From: a virus
IMG/VR virus record: IMGVR_UViG_3300044815_000101
Location: 1 to 40,301 of that record
Length of the DNA: 40,301 bases
Strand: one strand, 5' to 3'
The notes under the pieces are model-generated. The model was not told where the DNA came from, did not search any database, and saw only the letters and a program-made list of their open reading frames with translations. Numbering within the stretch: position 1 is the stretch's first letter; each line of letters begins with the position of its first letter. Below are positions 7,877-32,719 of this stretch, in pieces. Made by a program: the position numbers and the translations under genes.

Positions 7877-10525
7877 TTGGATTCCCCACAACCCGACCAG
7901 GGCAGGCCATTCCAGCGGCTCCTCACCGTCCTCGGCCGCGACCAGGACGGCATCCGCCTCTGCACCGCCGGAGCAGACCAGCCCTTCCACGTCATCCCCT
8001 CACTGTTCCGCCCCGACACCGTCGACATCGCCGTCGCCGCGTTCACCGAGAAGCACCTCGACGTCTGGTTCGAGATCAACTACGCCCCCCACGTCGCCGG
8101 CGGCCGCACCTCCGAGAAGGACGTCACCCGACTGTCTGCCCTCTACGTCGACATCGACTTCAAAGGCTCCGAGACAGGCAAGCAGGGCATGGGGTCGGAA
8201 CCCGCTGCCCTCGAGCTGTGCGACATGCTCGCCGGCGCCCTCGGCGTCGCCCCCGCCGCCATCCTCTGGTCCGGGCACGGGCTGCAGGCGTACTGGCCCG
8301 TCGAGGACGGCGCCATCGACGACATCAACCAGCAGGACATCATCAACCTCTCCAAGAGGTGGGGGCTGCTGTGCATGGAGATGGCGCGCGCTGAGGGCGG
8401 CGCCGTCGACAACATCTTCGACCTCGCCCGCATCTTCCGCGCCCCCGGCTCGACGAACTGGAAGAATCCGGCACGCCCCGCTCCCACCCGCATAGAGTTC
8501 CCGCAAGGCAACCTGCCGCTGACCGTCGAGGAGATCGGGGAGGTGCTGGACGCGCACGGCATCCGCCACCCCGACACCGCCGAGCTCGCCGGGGAAGTCG
8601 TCTCACCCCCGTCGGAATGGGCGTTCGCCGACGCTGACTGCCACCACGTCGCCATCATCATGGAGGGCGTCAACGCCACTCCCAACTCCCGCCACCACTG
8701 GCTGCTGCAGCAGGCCACCCTCCTCACCGCCAGCATCCGCTACGGCTGCATCACCAAGGACACATTCCGGCAGTACCGGAAGGCGATCGAGCAGCGCCTG
8801 CAGCAGCTGCTCACCTCCGACGCATCCAACACGCGCGCCTACTCCCCGTACGAGGTGGAGTCCGCGTTCCGCCGCGCCCTCCTGAACGTGCAGACCATGA
8901 GCCAGGTGAAGCTCGAGGAGGAGATGCGCCGCCACCCCCACCCGGTGCTGCGCCTCATCCGGCAGGCCGAGCAGGCATCCGACGCCGGCCAGTCCAACGT
9001 GCGCATCAAGAACGAAGCCACCCCCACCAACCCCGGCCCAGACATCGCCTTCGACGGCGGGAACGTCCTCAAACTGCAGCCGCGCGAGCAGGTCATCACC
9101 AATGAGTTCGCCTACACCGACGCATCCAACGCCGACCGCCTCGCCGACTACGTCGAGGCCGACTACATCTTCGTCCCCGGCATCGGCTGGCACCGGTGGG
9201 AGGAGGGCTGCTACACGCCCGACGAGGAGACGACGATCATGGAGCGGGCGAAGGAGTCGCTGCTCGCGTTCCGGCGCTCCTACCCCACCGTCGACGACGT
9301 CCACGCCCACGTCAAGAAGTCACTCTCCGCGGGCGGGCTGCGGGCATCCGTCGCCCTCGCCGAGACACTCCCGCAGATGGTGGTGCCCCCGCACCAGCTC
9401 GACGGGAAACCGTACGACCTGCCCACACCCGGCGGCATCGTCGACCTCAACACGGGCATCCTGCGTCCTGCACGCCCCCGCATCGACCTGAACACGATGC
9501 GCACCGCCGTCACCCCCGAACGCATGCCGACGCCCCAGTGGGATGCCTTCATGCTGTTCTGCATGCAGACCCCCGAGATGGTTGCCTACATGCAGCGACT
9601 CCTCGGGGCGACCCTCATCGGGGAACCGCGGTTCCACATCCTCCCGATCCTCACCGGCGACGGCGGCAACGGCAAGTCCACCCTCCTCAACATCGTCGAG
9701 TGGTGCCTGGGCGGGTTCGCGAAGCGCATGGACGAGAACTTCCTCATTGAGCAGCGCAACCAGCAGCACCCGCAGGAGATCGCACGCCTGCGCGGCTGCC
9801 GCCTCGCGATCGCATCCGAGGCCAAGGCCAACGGCCGGTTCGCCGAGGCCCGGGTGAAGGCCCTCACCGGCGAGAAGCGGCTCACCGGCCGGTTCATGGG
9901 CGAGAACAGCTTCGACTTCAACAACTCCATCACCATGTGGCTGCTCGTCAACCACCTCCCCGCCGTCGCCGCCGGAGGCAAGGGGTTCTGGCGCCGCATC
10001 CGCAAGATCGCCCTCAAAGGCAAGATCCTCAAGGAGATCGAGAACCTCGAGAACCTCATCTTCGACGCCGAGGGACCCGGCATCCTGCAATGGATGATCG
10101 ACGGGGCCGTCGAGGTCATCGCCAACGGCTTGCAGGACCCCGAGGCGGTGAAGCAGGCCACCAAGGAGTACGAGGTCGAGGAGGACCACCTCGGCCAGTG
10201 GGTGGCAGACAACCTCATGGTCAACCCGACCGTCGGGGCGCTCAAGGACGAGGTGTACCGCCGGTACAAGAGGTTCGCCGTCGACGCCGCCATCCCCGTC
10301 CTCTCCAAGTCGGTGTTCGCCCGCGAGCTGCACCACTACATCGAGATCAACGAGTTCACCTCCACCCCCACCGTCTACGGCGGCATCGCGCTCGCCGTCG
10401 AGCAGCTCGGCTACGGCCCCCTCGCCCCCGCCCCCAACGTGCGCCTCACCCACGAGCCGCTGCCGCCCACCCCGGGCGCACCCGGACTGTTCGACACCGC
10501 CATGACCGGCGGCAGCGATGAGTGA
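7877..10525 (+). CDS. Primase-helicase: AEP-like primase fused to D5-type SF3 helicase
   Basis: This is 882 residues from TTG at 7877. The TTG is chosen because CACTCGAAGGAG ends just before it and because the in-frame ATG at 7826 lacks a ribosome site. The N-terminal part has ALYVDIDFKG near residue 90 and AAILWSGHGLQAYWP near residue 130, the DxD and sGxGlqaYW signatures of RepB-like archaeo-eukaryotic primases. A D5-N-like region follows. A Walker A GDGGNGKST lies near residues 594-602, then RLAIASEAK and WLLVNHLPAV, and FWRRIRKI as a sensor/arginine region of SF3 helicases. It probably primes and unwinds at the phage origin. The methyltransferase gene overlaps its end. Confidence 0.9.
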   Translation: MDSPQPDQGRPFQRLLTVLGRDQDGIRLCTAGADQPFHVIPSLFRPDTVDIAVAAFTEKHLDVWFEINYAPHVAGGRTSEKDVTRLSALYVDIDFKGSETGKQGMGSEPAALELCDMLAGALGVAPAAILWSGHGLQAYWPVEDGAIDDINQQDIINLSKRWGLLCMEMARAEGGAVDNIFDLARIFRAPGSTNWKNPARPAPTRIEFPQGNLPLTVEEIGEVLDAHGIRHPDTAELAGEVVSPPSEWAFADADCHHVAIIMEGVNATPNSRHHWLLQQATLLTASIRYGCITKDTFRQYRKAIEQRLQQLLTSDASNTRAYSPYEVESAFRRALLNVQTMSQVKLEEEMRRHPHPVLRLIRQAEQASDAGQSNVRIKNEATPTNPGPDIAFDGGNVLKLQPREQVITNEFAYTDASNADRLADYVEADYIFVPGIGWHRWEEGCYTPDEETTIMERAKESLLAFRRSYPTVDDVHAHVKKSLSAGGLRASVALAETLPQMVVPPHQLDGKPYDLPTPGGIVDLNTGILRPARPRIDLNTMRTAVTPERMPTPQWDAFMLFCMQTPEMVAYMQRLLGATLIGEPRFHILPILTGDGGNGKSTLLNIVEWCLGGFAKRMDENFLIEQRNQQHPQEIARLRGCRLAIASEAKANGRFAEARVKALTGEKRLTGRFMGENSFDFNNSITMWLLVNHLPAVAAGGKGFWRRIRKIALKGKILKEIENLENLIFDAEGPGILQWMIDGAVEVIANGLQDPEAVKQATKEYEVEEDHLGQWVADNLMVNPTVGALKDEVYRRYKRFAVDAAIPVLSKSVFARELHHYIEINEFTSTPTVYGGIALAVEQLGYGPLAPAPNVRLTHEPLPPTPGAPGLFDTAMTGGSDE

Positions 10526-11186
10526 CAGGCCCCGGCTGCTGGACCTGTTCTGCTGCGCCGGCGGGGCCTCCATGGGGTACCACCGGGCCGGGTTCGACGT
10601 CGTCGGCGTCGACATTGCCCCACAGCCGAACTACCCCTTCGATTTCATCCACGCTGACGCCCTCGAGTTCATCCGCGCCCATGGTCACGAGTTCGATGCC
10701 ATCCATCTCTCGCCACCGTGCCAGCGTAACTCCACGATGACTCGACGGTGGGGCGCCGACGTCGTCAACTCGCATCCCGAGCTCATTGCACCCTCCCGCG
10801 AGATCGTCAAAGACCTCGGCATCCCGTACATCATCGAGAACGTCGCCGGCGCGCCGCTGCTCGATCCGATCGTCCTCTGCGGCGGGATGTTCGACCTCGG
10901 TACCGACTATGACGGCGAACACTTTACCCTCCGACGCCACCGCCTGTTCGAGTCCAACCTGAACCTCGTCGCCCCCCCCCATCCGGTGCACGAAGGTCGC
11001 GCGGTCGGCGTCTACGGGCACCCCGGCGGCTCCTCCAAACGCGACGGCATAAAGTTCCCACAGGCCGCCGGCTGGCGGGAGGCTATGGGCATCGATTGGA
11101 TGCGGATCTCCGAGCTGGCCGAGGCGCTGCCACCGGCATACACGCAGCACCTCGGCAGACAGCTCATGGAGGCGATCAGTGGCTGA
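10518..11186 (+). CDS. C5-cytosine DNA methyltransferase (compact)
   Basis: This 222-residue protein has motif I DLFCCAGGASMGYHRAG at residues 9-25, motif IV LSPPCQ at 64-69 with the catalytic Cys68, motif VI ENVAG at 107 and a C-terminal helix with AEALPPAYTQHLG resembling motif X. It is shorter than typical Dcm enzymes of over 300 residues, so the target-recognition region is minimal, as seen in many actinophage enzymes. It would methylate cytosine C5, probably to protect phage DNA. It overlaps the primase-helicase by 8 bp and the HNH gene by 8 bp. Confidence 0.88.
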   Translation: MSDRPRLLDLFCCAGGASMGYHRAGFDVVGVDIAPQPNYPFDFIHADALEFIRAHGHEFDAIHLSPPCQRNSTMTRRWGADVVNSHPELIAPSREIVKDLGIPYIIENVAGAPLLDPIVLCGGMFDLGTDYDGEHFTLRRHRLFESNLNLVAPPHPVHEGRAVGVYGHPGGSSKRDGIKFPQAAGWREAMGIDWMRISELAEALPPAYTQHLGRQLMEAISG

Positions 11187-25302: not shown

Positions 25303-28300
25303 ATGGCGGTTGACCCTACTCTGGCTGCCCGTGTCAGCTCGTACTTCGGCAGGAGCCGGGCAGGCGGGGCAAGCTCGTTCTCGTACCTGCCGCTGCAGTC
25401 GGCGACCCCGGTGGCATCGAACGCGAACAACTCCTCCGAGGCCCCCCAGAACGTGGGGCAGTGGCTGCTGAACCTCCTCAGCACAGGCACCTACATGACT
25501 GCGAACATCGGGCAGCAGTACGGCGACGCGGTTGAGAAGGTCAAGGCTGGCGACAATTTCGGCGGCTACCTGCAAGGCGTCATCGCCCCCGTCTCCGGCG
25601 CGCTGATGGGCCTCACCGAGGGGTTCGGTGGCCGGTTCGACCGCAACGGCGACGGCGTGCAGGAGCGCCCCCGCACGTGGGGGCAGAACCTCGAGGACCT
25701 CGGGGCCTTTGACTGGGTGAACCCCGAGGACTCCGGGCAGGTGTTCGGGCAAGCCGCCATCTCCACCGTCGCCGACATCGCCCTCGACCCCACCACCTAC
25801 CTGTCCGTCGGTGCCATCCCCATCATCAAGGGCCTGTTCAAAGGCGGCGCCGCGGCGCTCAAAGGCGCAGAGGAGGCCGGAGTCATCGGCGGGGCACTGA
25901 AAGGCGCATCCACGGAATGGAATGCGGCGCGTACAGCTACCCAGCTCGCGAAGGCGAACCGGGCCGAGAACCGGGGGCTGCGCCGCGACTTCGCCGACCA
26001 GATCCGCGCCGGCCTCATCGACAAGGCCGACATCCCCCAGATCAGGCAGGTGCTCGCCACCGCCGGCGTCTCCCGCGCCGCCATGTCGCCGGAGGTGATG
26101 GCTGCCGTGCAGGACGGTCTACGAGCCGCGAAAGAGGCCCCCGTGGTCGCCGGGGACGAGATCATCGAAGCCGGCAGCGCATCGAAGCTGCCGTCGTCGC
26201 TGCCGGAGCGCCGCTACGCCGACGAACTCGTCCCGACCCTGCGCGGGCAGCGCGCCAACCCACCGGACCCCGCTGCCGTACGCAGCATGTTCGAGAAGTC
26301 CCTCAACCGCCCCAAGGCGGCGAAGGGGGCGCTGCCGACCCCGAAGTTCTCCTCCACCGCCGACACCCTCGTGCGCCGCATCGCCGACGACCTCGTCGAC
26401 CCGGCAGAGATCAAGACGGCGCTGGCGGCGATCGGGAGGCTGAAGAACGGGGCCGAGCTACTGAAGCACCCGGTAACCGTCGGCGCCCGGCAGATGCCGT
26501 TGCGGCAGCTGCTGCAGGAGATGCACGCCCGCCGCGCCTCCGGCGCCCCACCACGGCCTGAGCACCGCGCCGCCCTCGACTCGGCGCTGCGCCCCGGAGC
26601 CACACCGCCGACCCCCGCTGTGTTCAACCCGGCGCGCCTGTCGGAGCTGATGCGGGAGCAGTACGGCCGCGAGCTCACCCAGGAGGACCTGGCCCGGTTC
26701 CTGTCCACCCCGAACACCGACAAGCTCGACGTGCTCCGGCAGATCGCGGGCGGCCCGCAGGCGGTCGGCTACTCCGACTTCGCGGAGGCCCTCGCCGGGG
26801 CGTCCGCCGGGGAGCTGTCCGCCACCGCGATGCGCCGCATGGCCGAGGCCGTCGGCATCCGGGTTCCCACCCGCGCCACCACCGACGAGGTGCGGTCGCT
26901 ACTGAAGACCGAGGGGCAGTTCAACTGGGACCGTATCACCGGGGCGCTGCGCTCCGAGGGCGAGGTCATGGCCGACCACGGCCTCGACGCCCTCGAGACG
27001 GCCACCGCCCGCGGCATCGACGTCGGCGCGGCGAAGACGCAGCTCGGCGCCGACTTCGCTGCGAAGGTAGCCCCCTCCTCCGGGTCGCGCCGCGGCATGG
27101 GCGCTTACGCGGCGATCACCGCGCTCGGCGAGGAGTGGGCGAAAAGGCTCGACAAGGGCGTCGAGTCCTTCGACCTGCTCTCCAACCAGACCATGCGCAC
27201 CATCATCGCCGCCGCATCGAAGGCGATGCAGCCCACCGCCACGCACCTCATCGGCGCCGACCGTGCCGGATTCGGCGCTGACCTCGCCGAGGTGATCCGT
27301 CTCGTCGAGTCGTGGGCGGACGCAGCCGGGTCCATGCCGCACATCTACGGCACCAGCTTCGCCGACACGTGGCAGGTGCGCTTCTCCGACATCCTCGACA
27401 ACCTCGGCCCGGAGGTCACCGGGAAGGCCCTGTTCACCCCCATGGTGTACCGGCAGGTCGCGTCGAAGACCGGTCTGACCATCTACCCGACGACGATCGC
27501 GAAGGCCACCGCCGAGGCCCTCAAGCACGCCGACGCCGGCTTCACCCCCGAGCAGGTCGCCTACCAGGTCACCAGCACGATCCTCGAGGACTCCAAGCGG
27601 GTCCGCAACGAGTTCATCGGCACCGCCGACGGGCAGGCTGCTGTCGCTGCCCTCTCGGCCCGTATGTCCGACCCCGAGTTCACCACCGCCCTCCTCGCCG
27701 TCCACGCGGCACGCAAGCCGCTCGCCGCCGCGATGAGCATCGACACCGCAGCCCGCGCTGTCACCCCTGTCGGTGACGCCATCGTGAAGGCGCTCGCCAA
27801 GGCCGCCGGTGGAGGCGACCGCGCCGAGGTGTTCTCCATTATCGACGAGGGCTGGAATATGGCTGCGCGGCTGCGCGGAGGCAAGCCCCTCGGCCACCTC
27901 GTCGACGACGTCGCACGCGAGCGCCTCAACCAGGGATTCCTGCGCGGGGTGCTCGGGGAGGCGGGCGCACGCGTGTTCAAGGCCGACACCCGCTCCGCAC
28001 GTGCCAACAACCCGGGAAACGCCGTCAGAAGCCCTAGGGAGGCCGCGCAGGGCGCGGAGGAGGCGCAGGCGGCGCTGCAGGCCCGTGGACCCCGTACCGG
28101 GCCGGAGGGGCAGCCGCAGAAGGCGCGCCGCAACCAGCAGTCGAAGGCGGAGGTGAAGAACCTCGACGACGCCGCTGACATCCACACGCAGGCCATCGAC
28201 GACATGATCGCCAAGGGCGAGATCGAGGACACCCCGCTCGGCCGCATCGAGGCCCTGTTCGAGCTCGAGATGGCCTACAAGGGCGGCCGCATGTTCCACA

Positions 28301-30447
28301 AGCTGGGGCAGGCCCTCGAGGGTTCGTTCGGGCAGGCGGACCTGAAGGGCCTCGCCACCGCTGTCAACGGCAACACCTACCGCCTCTCCGGCCTGTACGC
28401 GGAGTCGATGGTGAAGTGGGCGAAGAAGATCGGCTACGACAAGGACCCCGGGCAGCTGGGGAAGCTGTGGCGCGCCCTCGCCCGTGCGCCGATCGGCGCC
28501 GGCGACGACGTCCTCCGGGGTGTTCTCACCGCCGGGCAGCGCGCCGACGCCCTCAACCCCCTCGCCCGCACCGCCATCGACCCGCTCACCGCGGAGGAGG
28601 CCGACCTCGCGCTTGAGCTGAAGCAGTTCATCGACGTCGTCTTCGCCCCCGGCGGGCACGGCATGTTCTCCCGCTCCGGGGTCGTCGCCTCCGACCTCGC
28701 GAAGGAGCTGCGGCGTGTCGGCGCCCGCGACGGCGGGGAGGCGTGGGCGAAGTTCAAGGTCGACGACCAGCTGGCACTGCCGGACCAGACCGGGCTGTGG
28801 CGCACCTGGGACCTCGTCGACGGCGACGACCCGCTCGACGTGCTCGTCAAATACCACACCGCGCTGCAGGCGTCGTCGGTGAAGCCCTCCGTCGGGGCAT
28901 CCCTGGCCCGCCACTTCGGCAACGAGGCCGCCGGCATGAGCGCCGCCGAGGCGGCAGCAGCCGGGTGGAAGAAGGTCGACACGTTCGCGGAGGACGCCGA
29001 CCTGGCACGGTTTGTCGACCCCGACGCGTACTTCCCGTCGGAGATCGTCAAGCAGATGGCGTACACGCAGGAGTTCCTGAACGCCTCGACCCGGTTCGAG
29101 GGTCAGCTGGGGCGCTTCATGGACGTCTACGACTCGGTGCTGTCCGTGCTCAAGTCGAGCAACACCCTGTGGCGGCCCGGCCACCATGTCACCAACGTGC
29201 TCGGCGAGACGTTCATGAACTTCATGGCCGGCGTCAACCCGATGCGCTACACGAAGGGCGTCGCGGCGATGCGCGCCGGCGGGCACCTCACCGACGCGGA
29301 CCTGTCGCCGCTGGCACGCTACAACGCCTCCAACACCCCTGCCGGTTTCCAGGTGAAGGAGTCGTTCGGCTCCGACGCCACCCAGGTCGTCCTCAACGTC
29401 GGCGGCAAGAAGCAGCTGATGTCGATCGACCCGGGGTCGATCTGGCAGGCGGCCCTCGACCACTCCGTCGCGATCACCCACGGCCTCGCCGAGGACATCC
29501 TCGCCCCCACCATGGCGAAGCTGAACCCGTCGGCCGGGCGGCAGCTGCTGTCGCCGGTGATCGAGACGAACACGGCGCTCGCGAGGTTCTCCGCGGCCCG
29601 TGACAACGTGTTCCGTCTCACCCACTTCGTCGACGCCCTCGAGAAGGGCCAGTACCGCACCCTCGACGAGGCGTTCCGGCAGGCGGCGAAGGTGGTGCAC
29701 GACTACCACCCGACGATGCAGACCCTGTCGGCGTTCGAGCAGAAGTACGCGCGCCGCCTCGTGTTCTTCTACACGTGGCAGCGGCAGGCCATCGCCCGCG
29801 TGCTGAAGACCGCCCTCGACAAGCCGGGGTTGGTGACGGCGCCGTCGAAGATCCAGTACAACCTCGCGGAGGCGAACGGTCTGCAGCCGGACTCGTTCGG
29901 CGCCCCCCAGAACGGCGACCCCAGGATCGCTTCGTACGGGTCGGAGACGCTGCTGGGGCCGACCTTCGAGGCAGGGTTGACCCCGTTCGACGAGGGGTCG
30001 AACCTGTGGGGCTTCTCCATGTCGGCACCGCAGATCGATGGCATCCAGTCGCTGTTCAAGGGCCTCACCGTCAAACCGGAAGATGGTGCCGGCAACATCG
30101 GCAACATGCTCGCCGGCATCGGCGAGGGGGCGGCGGGGCAGCTGCCGCCGCTGCTGAAGGCCCCCATCGAGCTCGCGACCGGCAACAAGGTCGGCGACGG
30201 CGGCCCCATCGACGACATCGGCGAGTACCTGCTCGCGCAGACGGGCCTGCCGAACCAGCTGAACAACGCGATGGGCGGGTCGGCGGATCCGCGGAAGTCG
30301 GCGGAGGAGAACCAGGCCGACCAGCTGCGCTCCGCCCTGAACCTGCTGACCGGCATGAAGTTCCAGAACTACACCACCCCGCAGTCGGCGAACCGCGCCC
30401 ACCAGGAGGAGGTCGAGCGGCAGCGGAAACTCGCAGGGCTTGAGTAG
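25303..30447 (+). CDS. Giant internal virion (ejection) protein candidate, 1,714 aa
   Basis: This is the largest gene of the window. It is mostly alpha-helical with Ala/Arg/Asp-rich segments. Visible segments include a Gly-rich early region (GVIAPVSGALMGLTEGFGGRFDRNGDG), a middle low-complexity stretch near residue 910-960 rich in Gln/Arg (GAEEAQAALQARGPRTG), and a C-terminal block with WRPGHHVTNVLGETFMNFMAG and RRLVFFYTWQRQAIARVL. That C-terminal pattern recurs in large phage virion proteins of unknown function. I see no transglycosylase, protease or polymerase motif. The protein probably enters the cell with the DNA. It has its own leaderless start. Confidence 0.75.
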   Translation: MAVDPTLAARVSSYFGRSRAGGASSFSYLPLQSATPVASNANNSSEAPQNVGQWLLNLLSTGTYMTANIGQQYGDAVEKVKAGDNFGGYLQGVIAPVSGALMGLTEGFGGRFDRNGDGVQERPRTWGQNLEDLGAFDWVNPEDSGQVFGQAAISTVADIALDPTTYLSVGAIPIIKGLFKGGAAALKGAEEAGVIGGALKGASTEWNAARTATQLAKANRAENRGLRRDFADQIRAGLIDKADIPQIRQVLATAGVSRAAMSPEVMAAVQDGLRAAKEAPVVAGDEIIEAGSASKLPSSLPERRYADELVPTLRGQRANPPDPAAVRSMFEKSLNRPKAAKGALPTPKFSSTADTLVRRIADDLVDPAEIKTALAAIGRLKNGAELLKHPVTVGARQMPLRQLLQEMHARRASGAPPRPEHRAALDSALRPGATPPTPAVFNPARLSELMREQYGRELTQEDLARFLSTPNTDKLDVLRQIAGGPQAVGYSDFAEALAGASAGELSATAMRRMAEAVGIRVPTRATTDEVRSLLKTEGQFNWDRITGALRSEGEVMADHGLDALETATARGIDVGAAKTQLGADFAAKVAPSSGSRRGMGAYAAITALGEEWAKRLDKGVESFDLLSNQTMRTIIAAASKAMQPTATHLIGADRAGFGADLAEVIRLVESWADAAGSMPHIYGTSFADTWQVRFSDILDNLGPEVTGKALFTPMVYRQVASKTGLTIYPTTIAKATAEALKHADAGFTPEQVAYQVTSTILEDSKRVRNEFIGTADGQAAVAALSARMSDPEFTTALLAVHAARKPLAAAMSIDTAARAVTPVGDAIVKALAKAAGGGDRAEVFSIIDEGWNMAARLRGGKPLGHLVDDVARERLNQGFLRGVLGEAGARVFKADTRSARANNPGNAVRSPREAAQGAEEAQAALQARGPRTGPEGQPQKARRNQQSKAEVKNLDDAADIHTQAIDDMIAKGEIEDTPLGRIEALFELEMAYKGGRMFHKLGQALEGSFGQADLKGLATAVNGNTYRLSGLYAESMVKWAKKIGYDKDPGQLGKLWRALARAPIGAGDDVLRGVLTAGQRADALNPLARTAIDPLTAEEADLALELKQFIDVVFAPGGHGMFSRSGVVASDLAKELRRVGARDGGEAWAKFKVDDQLALPDQTGLWRTWDLVDGDDPLDVLVKYHTALQASSVKPSVGASLARHFGNEAAGMSAAEAAAAGWKKVDTFAEDADLARFVDPDAYFPSEIVKQMAYTQEFLNASTRFEGQLGRFMDVYDSVLSVLKSSNTLWRPGHHVTNVLGETFMNFMAGVNPMRYTKGVAAMRAGGHLTDADLSPLARYNASNTPAGFQVKESFGSDATQVVLNVGGKKQLMSIDPGSIWQAALDHSVAITHGLAEDILAPTMAKLNPSAGRQLLSPVIETNTALARFSAARDNVFRLTHFVDALEKGQYRTLDEAFRQAAKVVHDYHPTMQTLSAFEQKYARRLVFFYTWQRQAIARVLKTALDKPGLVTAPSKIQYNLAEANGLQPDSFGAPQNGDPRIASYGSETLLGPTFEAGLTPFDEGSNLWGFSMSAPQIDGIQSLFKGLTVKPEDGAGNIGNMLAGIGEGAAGQLPPLLKAPIELATGNKVGDGGPIDDIGEYLLAQTGLPNQLNNAMGGSADPRKSAEENQADQLRSALNLLTGMKFQNYTTPQSANRAHQEEVERQRKLAGLE

Positions 30448-30496: not shown

Positions 30497-30796
30497 ATGC
30501 TCCAATCCGGCGATGCCGTGTTCTTCGACAAGCTCGGAGACAACACCAGCGTCCCGCTGCTCACCCTCGTGAGCGGCCTCGACATCCGCGACCAGATCCG
30601 CCGCCACGCCCGCGAGCACATCGTCAACCCCGGCCACCCGGTGCGCGGTCCGATCGTCCGCCTGCGCCTCCGCGGCGGCTTCACCATCGTTGACGAGGAC
30701 ACCGGGTACACGTACGGCACCGCCCGCAAGTCCCCCACCTTCACCGAAGGCCCCGACATCCCGCCGTTCGCCCCGCCAGCAGGGTTCCAGCGGTGA
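30497..30796 (+). CDS. Hypothetical protein, 99 aa
   Basis: The ATG at 30497 is chosen because CACTCGAAAGGA precedes it. The protein is beta-rich at its centre (PIVRLRLRGGFTIVDEDTGYTYG) with a Pro-rich C-terminus. No family is recognised. It leads the operator-controlled operon that contains the HNH and Acb2-like genes, and its stop is overlapped by the HNH GTG (GTGA). Confidence 0.75.
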   Translation: MLQSGDAVFFDKLGDNTSVPLLTLVSGLDIRDQIRRHAREHIVNPGHPVRGPIVRLRLRGGFTIVDEDTGYTYGTARKSPTFTEGPDIPPFAPPAGFQR

Positions 30797-31266
30797 GCGA
30801 GCAGCGGTGGGGAGCCGTCGTCAACCCGGTCATCATGGACGGCCTCATCGCCCTCGCCCCCGACCCTGCCTTCGGGGAGCGGTTCTGGTCCAAGGTCGAC
30901 AAGCGCACCGTCGACTACGACGACGACTGCTGGATATGGACCGCCGCCCTCTCCTCCGAGGGGTACGGCAACATGCGCTGCCTCATCGACGGGGTGTGGC
31001 GCAACGTCCGCTCCCACAGGATCGCCTGGTTCATCACCTACCCGCACATCATCGACACCGACCTGGTCCTCGACCACCTGGTGCCCGTCTGCCGTGGCCG
31101 GTACTGCGTCAACCCCATGCACCTGGACCCCGTCACCCGCGCAGAGAACACCGCCCGCGGCACCGGCGTCGGCGCCGCCATCCAACGATCCCTCCGCGCC
31201 GAGCACCTGCTCGAGCGGGACACCCGCGAGCGCCCGCTCGCCACACCAGAGAGGCTCATCGCATGA
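30793..31266 (+). CDS. HNH endonuclease (HNH_3-like)
   Basis: This 157-residue protein starts with GTG overlapping the previous TGA. It has FWSKVDKRTVDYDDDCWIWT followed by SSEGYGNMR, SHRIAWF, then DHLVPVCRGRYCVNPMHLDPVTRAEN. The DHLVP histidine pair, the NPMHL asparagine/histidine and the CRGRYC cysteines are the ordered signatures of HNH homing-type endonucleases with the small GYG-W motif. Many are free-standing mobile nucleases. It overlaps the Acb2-like gene by ATGA. Confidence 0.88.
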   Translation: MSEQRWGAVVNPVIMDGLIALAPDPAFGERFWSKVDKRTVDYDDDCWIWTAALSSEGYGNMRCLIDGVWRNVRSHRIAWFITYPHIIDTDLVLDHLVPVCRGRYCVNPMHLDPVTRAENTARGTGVGAAIQRSLRAEHLLERDTRERPLATPERLIA

Positions 31267-31616
31267 GCGCAGACGAGAACACCGAAAACCAGATCGCCGC
31301 ATCCAACGCCGCCCTCGCGAAGGCGAAGGCCCGGTTCTTCAAGGCCGGCGACTTCCCCGTCACCCCCGAGCAGCAGAAGGCGGTCGAGCTCCTGCAGGCG
31401 CACGTCATCGGCCTCGCCGCGGCGATTGAGCAGCACATCCCCGACGGCCGCAACAAGGCCCTCGCCCTCACCGCCCTCGAGGAGGTGCAGATGCGCGCAG
31501 GCCGCGCCGTCTGGGATCCCACCAGCACCTGGCCGCCCGACACCGCCCTGCAGCCCGGTGACCCCCACTACGCGCCGCCGCAGCCGGTCATGCCGTTCGA
31601 TGGGAGTGTGGACTGA
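31263..31616 (+). CDS. Acb2-like cyclic-nucleotide sponge candidate (anti-CBASS)
   Basis: This 117-residue protein has residues about 35-90 that read TPEQQKAVELLQAHVIG, then HIPDGRNKALALTALEEVQM and RAGRAVW. From memory of the Acb2 family, members end with a helical hairpin of the form P-x-x-R-x-x-x-LALTKLEEA-x-MWANAAI. The spacing and the LALT-LEE-xxM core agree, while the WAN part is changed to RAG. Acb2 proteins form hexamers that sequester cyclic oligonucleotide signals of CBASS and Thoeris. The flexible tail is Pro-rich. The family call is by pattern recall, not by alignment. Confidence 0.6.
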   Translation: MSADENTENQIAASNAALAKAKARFFKAGDFPVTPEQQKAVELLQAHVIGLAAAIEQHIPDGRNKALALTALEEVQMRAGRAVWDPTSTWPPDTALQPGDPHYAPPQPVMPFDGSVD

Positions 31617-31837
31617 TGCCCGACTACCGCGTCACTCACAGTCGCCCCGCGCCGCTCACCGAGGAGGGTGAGAGCCAGGGCGACCAGTCGCTGGGGTGGT
31701 CGGGGCGGGCCAAGGACCCGGCTGCCGCGATCGAGAAGTCCTACGAACAGTGGGGCGAGTCGATTGAAAACGACTACACCGTCACTGTCATCGAGATAGA
31801 CGCCGACGGCGACGAGATCGACGTCACCCCCTCATGA
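31616..31837 (+). CDS. Hypothetical protein, 73 aa
   Basis: The ATG overlaps the Acb2-like stop (TGATG), so it is in the same operon. It is an acidic protein with a beta-like end (YTVTVIEIDADGDEIDV) and a conserved-looking GWSGRAKDPAAAIE segment. No function is recognised. It overlaps a putative 27-codon gene by ATGA. Confidence 0.7.
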   Translation: MPDYRVTHSRPAPLTEEGESQGDQSLGWSGRAKDPAAAIEKSYEQWGESIENDYTVTVIEIDADGDEIDVTPS

Positions 31838-31917
31838 CGGGCCTAGAGGCGGTCGCCTGCGCCCTCGCGGTGTGGGTGGCCGTCCTCGCGGTCGGTGGCC
31901 TGCTCAATCGAGACTGA
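31834..31917 (+). CDS. Very small membrane peptide, 27 aa (putative)
   Basis: The ATG overlaps the previous stop. The peptide reads as one transmembrane helix (LEAVACALAVWVAVLAVGG) ending in LLNRD. Its last 75 bp overlap the convergent membrane gene's 3' end. Coding is plausible from the ATGA overlap but cannot be proved from such a short sequence. Confidence 0.4.
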   Translation: MTGLEAVACALAVWVAVLAVGGLLNRD

Positions 31918-32238
31918 CCCCGCCACCGTCTCCACGACCTCCTGCCAGCGGAACAGCAGCACCCACAGCAGCCGCGTCGACGTGAACCCGATGAACAGGT
32001 ACACCAGGTCGCGCAGGAGCTCCTTTGACACCCCCTGCCAGTCGGGGAACCACGACCCGACGACCGCGAGGTTGATGAGCGACCACAGCGACACGACGAA
32101 GTACATGACCGCACGGCCGCCCGGGTACTTCCGCCACTTCCGCGACCCGTACACGAGGATCCACACCGTCAGCACCAGGTCGACATAGATGATGGCGATG
32201 TTCGCCGTCCAGCGCAGGATCTCCTCAAGCAGCATCAT
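31843..32238 (-). CDS. Membrane protein with three transmembrane helices
   Basis: This 131-residue protein has hydrophobic helices at about 10-33 (TANIAIIYVDLVLTVWILVYG), 43-64 (MYFVVSLWSLINLAVVG) and 77-98 (LVYLFIGFTSTRLLWVLLF). The loops are basic and the tail is acidic/polar. Its ATG overlaps the upstream stop by ATGA. It could be a holin or a superinfection exclusion membrane protein; the lysis candidates nearby sit in a different operon. It is the last gene of a three-gene leftward set. Confidence 0.75.
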   Translation of the reverse strand: MMLLEEILRWTANIAIIYVDLVLTVWILVYGSRKWRKYPGGRAVMYFVVSLWSLINLAVVGSWFPDWQGVSKELLRDLVYLFIGFTSTRLLWVLLFRWQEVVETVAGSVSIEQATDREDGHPHREGAGDRL

Positions 32239-32432
32239 CGGGCCTTCCGTGCCATCGACAGGGTGAATTCCTTGCCGAAACCGTTCTGCTCCACCCTAGC
32301 GGCGAGGTACGCGTGCACCCGGTCGACGAGGGGCGCCTGCTGCCGCACCTTCTCGAGGTCCTCGTCGGCGTCGCGGATGATCTGCTCCATCCGCTCTGTC
32401 GAGGCGACGCTCTTGCGCTTGCGGGATCCCAT
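32235..32432 (-). CDS. Small basic/charged protein, 65 aa
   Basis: The start is ATG 32432, with gggagg 6 nt before it; a GTG one codon earlier would have too short an SD spacing. The protein is a basic N-terminus (MGSRKRKS) and a charged helix (MEQIIRDADEDLEKVRQQAP). It is coupled to both neighbours by overlapping stop and start. No domain is recognised; a coiled-coil cytoplasmic partner of the membrane proteins is plausible. Confidence 0.65.
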   Translation of the reverse strand: MGSRKRKSVASTERMEQIIRDADEDLEKVRQQAPLVDRVHAYLAARVEQNGFGKEFTLSMARKAR

Positions 32433-32719
32433 CACTCGCCTCCCTCTGGGGGCAGTTTAGCCCCCCGTTTTGGGGGCAGCAGTTCCTTGAACACATACTC
32501 GGCGAAACCCTGTGACTCGATCAGCTTCGTGTTCTGCTCGAGCGTGACCCGGGCTACCTCCGCGGACCTCTCCGCAGCCTCCTCGGCGCGCCGGCCGCGC
32601 CTGCCCGACCAGATGCGGTCGGTGGCGAAACCGATGACCAGGAACAGGCCGAGGCCGATGAACAGGGACCACCCGGAGATGTCGCCCCAGTCGCGCAGAA
32701 ACACCGTCCACCACTCCAT
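32432..32719 (-). CDS. Membrane-anchored coiled-coil protein, 95 aa
   Basis: It starts as a leaderless gene: TAGGAT, 6 nt, ATG. One transmembrane helix lies at residues 17-33 (WSLFIGLGLFLVIGFAT), followed by a basic and then Glu/Ala-rich coiled coil (RRAEEAAERSAEVARVTLEQ). No lysis or secretion motif is visible. It heads a leftward set of three small genes with the three-helix membrane protein. It is divergent from the gene at 32767 across a 47-bp gap. Confidence 0.75.
   Translation of the reverse strand: MEWWTVFLRDWGDISGWSLFIGLGLFLVIGFATDRIWSGRRGRRAEEAAERSAEVARVTLEQNTKLIESQGFAEYVFKELLPPKRGAKLPPEGGE

Follow-up and report, generated by a model that had tools for sequence, protein, structure and literature searches.

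An Acb2/Tad1-type hairpin protein with a putatively remodelled nucleotide pocket in a phage of likely actinobacterial host

The window analysed here, which is the whole of the IMG/VR viral record IMGVR_UViG_3300044815_000101 (40,301 bases), contains a gene whose 117-aa product falls, as judged by profile matching, within the Acb2/Tad1 hairpin family. The explanation that we regard as probable is that this product is a nucleotide sponge directed against CBASS or a Thoeris-like defence, with a dinucleotide pocket that would be partly remodelled. With it, an established class of anti-defence proteins gains a divergent member whose source is probably an actinophage. The family, as sampled, splits by linked residues (numbered as in T4 Vs.4), with a Tyr-His type motif, Trp76 and Ala79 on one side and no motif, Arg76, Arg79 and Phe82 on the other.

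Results

The sponge gene and its surroundings

A first-pass annotation of the window had proposed a sponge gene at 31263-31616. The coordinates proved exact: the ORF runs from ATG to TGA on the plus strand, its translation includes the segment PDGRNKALALTALEEVQMRAGRAVW that had been singled out, and its GC content by codon position (0.71/0.47/0.92) is similar to that of the neighbouring ORFs, which is a normal coding bias. The ORF is confirmed as real and coding. It is preceded by a purine-rich GAGAGG, it overlaps the end of the preceding ORF by 4 bp and has one base of its stop in common with the start that follows, within a tightly packed run of ORFs that encode, in order, a 111-aa product, an HNH endonuclease, the sponge and a 73-aa product. 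The features of this region are:

25303-30447: 1714-aa ORF, without a Pfam match
30793..31266, plus strand: HNH endonuclease gene, directly upstream of the sponge gene (phrog_826, E 1.5e-20)
31263..31616, plus strand: Acb2/Tad1 hairpin-family protein, 117 aa, predicted cyclic-nucleotide sponge (ORF, PF24729, phrog_1454, model)
31356..31511, plus strand: PF24729 hairpin domain, residues 32-83, with predicted helices 35-58 and 63-84 (profile match, model)
31616..31837, plus strand: 73-aa ORF, directly downstream of the sponge gene, with no family over cut-off

Pfam HNH_3 matched the HNH ORF with an E of 0.059 only, under its cut-off. Between 30000 and 33300 no site was found for the promoter types that the scan covers. 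Comparison of the seven adjoining ORFs with the collected loci revealed no conserved neighbour; only the HNH ORF matched outside the window, in one locus (L043). The 1714-aa ORF is probably a virion protein, to judge by its position only, and its last 814 residues gave one pattern match and no relatives among viral contigs, so that no close phage kin was found by that route. Opposed to the sponge operon, on the minus strand at 31843-32719, lie a putative holin gene (PF23778), a gene for a DUF7620 protein (PF24596) and a 95-aa ORF.

The window encodes a phage gene set with a helicase, an exonuclease, a DNA polymerase/primase and a portal, together with a large terminase subunit identified by Pfam, and its minus strand carries a holin and an endolysin/peptidase. 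The record is classed as linear and is therefore possibly a fragment. A scan of the window for tRNA genes found none. The portal matches 13 phage records, the best 10 of which are Cellulosimicrobium, Microbacterium and Arthrobacter phages (34-36% identical), and these portal relatives make an actinobacterial host likely. Elsewhere in the window, positions 10518-11186 gave a weak match to a C-5 cytosine DNA methylase (E 2.3e-4, 21.1 bits), just under the curated cut-off of 22.

Family membership and predicted fold

The Acb2-like character proposed for the protein was borne out by the curated model PF24729 (Acb2/Tad1 hairpin), which matches its residues 32-83 with 47.3 bits (E 2.4e-12) against a curated cut-off of 27, and with 48.9 bits in the genome search. 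T4 Vs.4 (71.4 bits) and the Pseudomonas Acb2 chain over its residues 7-91 (66.5 bits) are also hit by this model, so that a single curated model unites all three; it found no match in 14 control genomes. The protein is also matched by phrog_1454 (E 1.1e-11). A profile of 11 rows, the window sequence included, reached 'Acb2 homolog 43' (PDB 9ptq) with E 2.4e-5 and Vs.4 with E 1.1e-3, and a profile of 42 rows reached Acb2 homolog 43 (E 2.7e-10), Vs.4 (E 4.3e-4) and Tad1 (E 5.6e-4). With the sponge protein alone, phmmer gave no match in the PDB, BLASTP against Vs.4 was not significant, and a single-sequence scan of viral contigs returned five pattern matches and no relatives. NCBIfam held no family for the window protein, Vs.4 or L013, a sister from the same branch. 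We filed the protein in the wider hairpin family and not as a strict Acb2 (cGAMP sponge), because the equivalents of Vs.4 Y8, H11 and K23 are absent.

In the AlphaFold2 prediction a first helix leads into a long helical hairpin (pLDDT 86.3; helices at residues 3-24, 35-58 and 63-84). The first helix of the window model is comparatively long, and the sponge reading does not account for it or for the tail at residues 85-117. With the window model, Foldseek ranked Vs.4 19th, the best E of any row being 0.75, and VIA placed Vs.4 second (Z 7.0, rmsd 3.0 over 60 residues), just below an unrelated protein and with unrelated helical proteins scoring alike. With L013, Foldseek gave T4 Vs.4 chains at ranks 1 and 2 (E 0.56 and 0.85) and Acb2 chains at ranks 4, 6, 8 and 15, with no E under 0.56; VIA gave Z 6.3 for Vs.4 (rmsd 2.6 over 62 residues) and 5.7 for Acb2, tied with unrelated chains. 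Comparison with Acb2 structures, which the first-pass annotation had named as a check, thus yielded the predicted helical hairpin, and a match of the models to Vs.4 and Acb2 that is suggestive but not decisive. That the structure searches give support which is weak is expected for helical hairpins.

Pocket and interface residues

In T4 Vs.4, a cGAMP-binding hexamer, Y8 and F82 provide the stacking surfaces for the ligand, which Y8, H11, K23 and R79 hold in place, the hexamer is made by L29, A66, A73 and A77, S74N disturbs cGAMP binding, and F82A and Y8A lower binding more than 25-fold and more than 5-fold, respectively (PMC10097602, excerpts). In addition, Panoptes is not triggered by Y8A, and T68M is cited as a change that weakens binding by T4 Acb2 (PMC12657230, excerpts). 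We placed the window protein in register with Vs.4 by hhalign, at E 3.4e-4 and with a probability of only 37.8. In this register two of the five cGAMP contacts are kept, R79 as R81 and F82 as W84, another aromatic, whereas Y8, H11 and K23 correspond to D30, V33 and Q45. Three of the four hexamer-interface residues are likewise kept (L29, A66 and A77 as L51, A68 and A79). The fourth, A73, is V75, while S74 is Q76 and T68 is T70. Two stretches of the hairpin carry the residues at issue:

31449..31472, plus strand: R63 to T70, an Arg and a Thr with a spacing of seven residues that align with R67 and T74 in Pseudomonas Acb2
31494..31514, plus strand: R78-A79-G80-R81-A82-V83-W84, that is, the 'RAG' of the first-pass annotation followed by R81 and W84 (alignment to Vs.4)

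Where Vs.4 has A73 and A77, the residues of Pseudomonas Acb2 are G79 and I83, and so these two positions are not strict. This proven sponge keeps Y11, K26 and R85 and has an Ala (A88) at the position of F82, so that no single contact is strict either. On this alignment the dinucleotide pocket of the window protein may be partly remodelled, with R81 and W84 kept and the equivalents of Y8, H11 and K23 lost. An altered pocket had been suspected earlier from the replacement of a 'WAN' triplet by RAG. The suspicion stands in so far as the pocket may differ at the positions of Y8, H11 and K23; it does not stand for the triplet, as W76 and C78 are not among the Vs.4 ligand contacts named in the excerpts of PMC10097602.

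The features shared with Vs.4 (PMC10097602, excerpts) are the PF24729 hairpin, L29, A66, T68, A77, R79 and T12, and an aromatic at F82, and Vs.4 differs by Y8, H11, K23, S74 and W76, by a longer hairpin loop and by Asp61 where the window has R63. Pseudomonas Acb2, whose chain in PDB 8h2j is named p26 and comes from phage PaP2 (PMC11722364, excerpts), shares PF24729, the Arg/Thr pair (R67, T74) and the Arg at the R79 position (R85); it differs by Y11 and K26 where Vs.4 has Y8 and K23, by A88 at the aromatic position and by AII at WAN. The second hairpin helix of Tad1 (PDB 7uav and others; RENACALT...MWMNR) aligns with the 42-row profile. Tad1 starts with an N-terminal antiparallel beta-sheet (PMC12043709, excerpts), unlike the window model, which has no strand and is helical at residues 3-24, and identity with Tad1 was rejected on this predicted structure.

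An arginine branch of the family

In the hhalign register the WAN of the first-pass annotation, there taken as the Acb2 signature, is W76-A77-C78 of Vs.4. Proven sponges read otherwise, AII in Pseudomonas Acb2 (PDB 8h2j) and WAC in T4 Vs.4, and the solved Acb2 homolog 43 has F-A-T there in the profile alignment; WAN therefore marks one branch and not proven sponges. Nor do the data support the replacement of WAN by RAG as a change special to the window protein: the change of Trp to Arg is common to a whole branch. Arg stood in place of Trp in 17 of 52 loci from a scan whose pattern omitted that position, and in 8 of the 10 phage loci examined out of 35 matching phage records.

The residues were tabulated for 66 sequences, namely 49 of 57 distinct IMG/VR loci (L019, L027, L032, L037, L041, L049, L062 and L063 were taken to duplicate others, or nearly so, and left out), along with 6 loci from genomes, 10 from phages and the window; 62 were kept once identical hairpins had been dropped. 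At position 76 half of these distinct hairpins (31) carry Trp or Tyr; the other 31 carry Arg and make up a branch that is defined by this Arg and whose size is biased by scan patterns some of which included it. Among the Arg rows, position 79 is Arg in 29 and Lys in 2, and position 82 is aromatic in 30; the Trp/Tyr rows have Lys in one and Arg in none at position 79, and Phe in two at position 82. A Tyr-His type motif before helix 1 was found in 0/31 Arg rows vs 25/31 Trp/Tyr rows, counts in which some IMG/VR starts, chosen by script, may be wrong and hide the motif in a few rows. A tree placed the Arg rows on one side of a branch with support of 89/83, which is moderate, and in 88% of 200 bootstrap trees; it rests on 53 columns, the Arg column among them. 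Intermediates exist: L029 and L080 retain Trp with Lys79 and Phe82, L076 reads WAGRAIF, and L074 has Arg76 and Arg79 but Ala82. Because of these intermediates, the sequences suggest that the Arg/Lys79 and Phe82 pair arose before the change of Trp to Arg. The L074 protein (L074:4932-5645) is itself a 238-aa hybrid, in which a Phe-His type N-terminus (GFHPAN) is joined to Arg76, Arg79 and Ala82.

The hairpin proteins nearest to that of the window are Wolfstar gp30, Tandem gp27, PhillyPhilly gp29 and Pepe25 gp61 of Microbacterium phages, and six genome loci of Microbacterium, Leifsonia and Pseudoclavibacter are likewise among its closest relatives. All share with the window GRNK or a close variant, R replacing W, and R or K at Vs.4 R79, and the relatives have F or Y at F82. 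The four phage proteins are 42-61% identical over 35-47% of the window protein length and, at 86-90 aa, lack the 33 residues of its tail; at residue 80, where the window has G, those of Wolfstar, Tandem and PhillyPhilly have I. Within the Arg branch the window protein departs at three positions: it has G at residue 80 (N in 22 of the 31 rows; G in 3, window included), W at 84 (F in 28) and, at the position of K23, Q at 45 (Arg in 18; Q in 5, window included), a position that presumes one length of hairpin loop where some rows differ.

Occurrence and defences of possible hosts

A clear actinophage member had been expected to widen the known host range. Such genes are already in GenBank, where Wolfstar gp30 and Sunfish gp10 are annotated as cyclic (oligo)nucleotide sequestering proteins, and in print, for Microbacterium phage Statler (PMC13348362, excerpts) and for mycobacteriophages Xandras and BigBubba (PMC11953737, excerpts); actinophage Acb2 genes are known and the range is not new. 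The Arg branch as such was not found named in searches of open-licence PMC papers. A tblastn search with the window protein gave 35 phage records (33 Microbacterium, one Curtobacterium and one Mycobacterium) and one with Boilgate gp2 gave 104. PF24729 matched in 8 of 398 Microbacteriaceae genomes, seven of them over the cut-off, with four Arg and four Trp cases, the one under the cut-off being Trp; two of the Arg cases (G003 and G006) were already in the table as L066 and L069. The named Arg-branch members come from Microbacterium phages and Microbacteriaceae genomes.

Among 199 Microbacteriaceae genomes, SMODS domains were found in 9 and ThsB-type TIR domains in 22, as domain matches and not whole systems; in the 14 control genomes SMODS matched in 3 (2 over the cut-off) and ThsB in 1. 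Of the six named genomes in which a branch member occurs, two also gave SMODS matches. Parts of CBASS and Thoeris-like systems therefore exist among possible hosts.

Discussion

In the explanation that we favour, the gene encodes a small Acb2/Tad1-family protein with a helical hairpin, which, by analogy with Vs.4 and Acb2, would assemble into a hexamer. The hexamer would bind cyclic-nucleotide alarm molecules from a host CBASS or Thoeris-like defence and, by holding the alarm nucleotide and not cleaving it, leave the host suicide effector off. A cyclic di- or trinucleotide is the probable ligand. A narrower version of this explanation, whose odds overlap with it, is that the dinucleotide pocket is disused and that what the sponge binds is, for the most part, cyclic trinucleotides at the trimer interface, or else an ADP-ribose signal of the Thoeris type. 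We hold this to be possible, if rather doubtful. The exchange of Y8, H11 and K23 for D30, V33 and Q45 argues for it, as do the intact R63 and T70, which are found in Pseudomonas Acb2 and Tad1, whereas Vs.4 has no such Arg; we infer that an Arg of the R63 type belongs to the trinucleotide site. The frequencies of ThsB-type TIR and SMODS domains point the same way, but they come from Microbacteriaceae, which may not be the host of the window phage. Against a disused pocket, the dinucleotide contacts R79 and F82 have their counterparts in R81 and W84, and F82A harmed Vs.4 more than Y8A did (PMC10097602, excerpts); nor does any single residue decide the ligand, since the F82 aromatic is lacking in Pseudomonas Acb2.

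The placement of the gene two ORFs past the presumed virion ORF, overlapped by the HNH gene, and the partial loss of pocket residues would also suit a hairpin that serves as an oligomerisation or scaffold module with no immune ligand to bind, linked for instance to the HNH endonuclease or to the late operon. This we consider improbable, since such genes lie upstream of the terminase in Wolfstar and Sunfish and between a ssDNA-binding protein and a RuvC-like resolvase in Pepe25 and Fransoyer, a variable placement that fits an accessory gene, and of the neighbouring ORFs only that of the HNH endonuclease had a match in an outside locus, a single one. Still less probable is a decayed family member that has lost binding. 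The departures at G80, Q45 and W84 might speak for decay, but the frame is open with normal coding bias, G and Q recur in other branch members, and R63 and three of the four interface residues are retained.

Beyond the family-level sponge activity that we favour, the Arg branch as a whole might be a re-tooled sponge with a pocket suited to a signal so far not associated with Acb2, for example one from defences special to Actinomycetota, which we put forward as a rather unlikely reading. The side of the pocket formed by the first helix (Vs.4 Y8 and H11, and in the window also K23) would have been replaced, and the Arg at W76 would stand on the same helix as the kept Arg/aromatic pair. The split between the branches offers a simple test of which residues determine ligand choice, and a different signal bound by the Arg branch would point to the signals of actinobacterial defences. 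One branch member, at L012:4971-5573, carries a C-terminal extension of ~120 residues after the hairpin, without a Pfam match.
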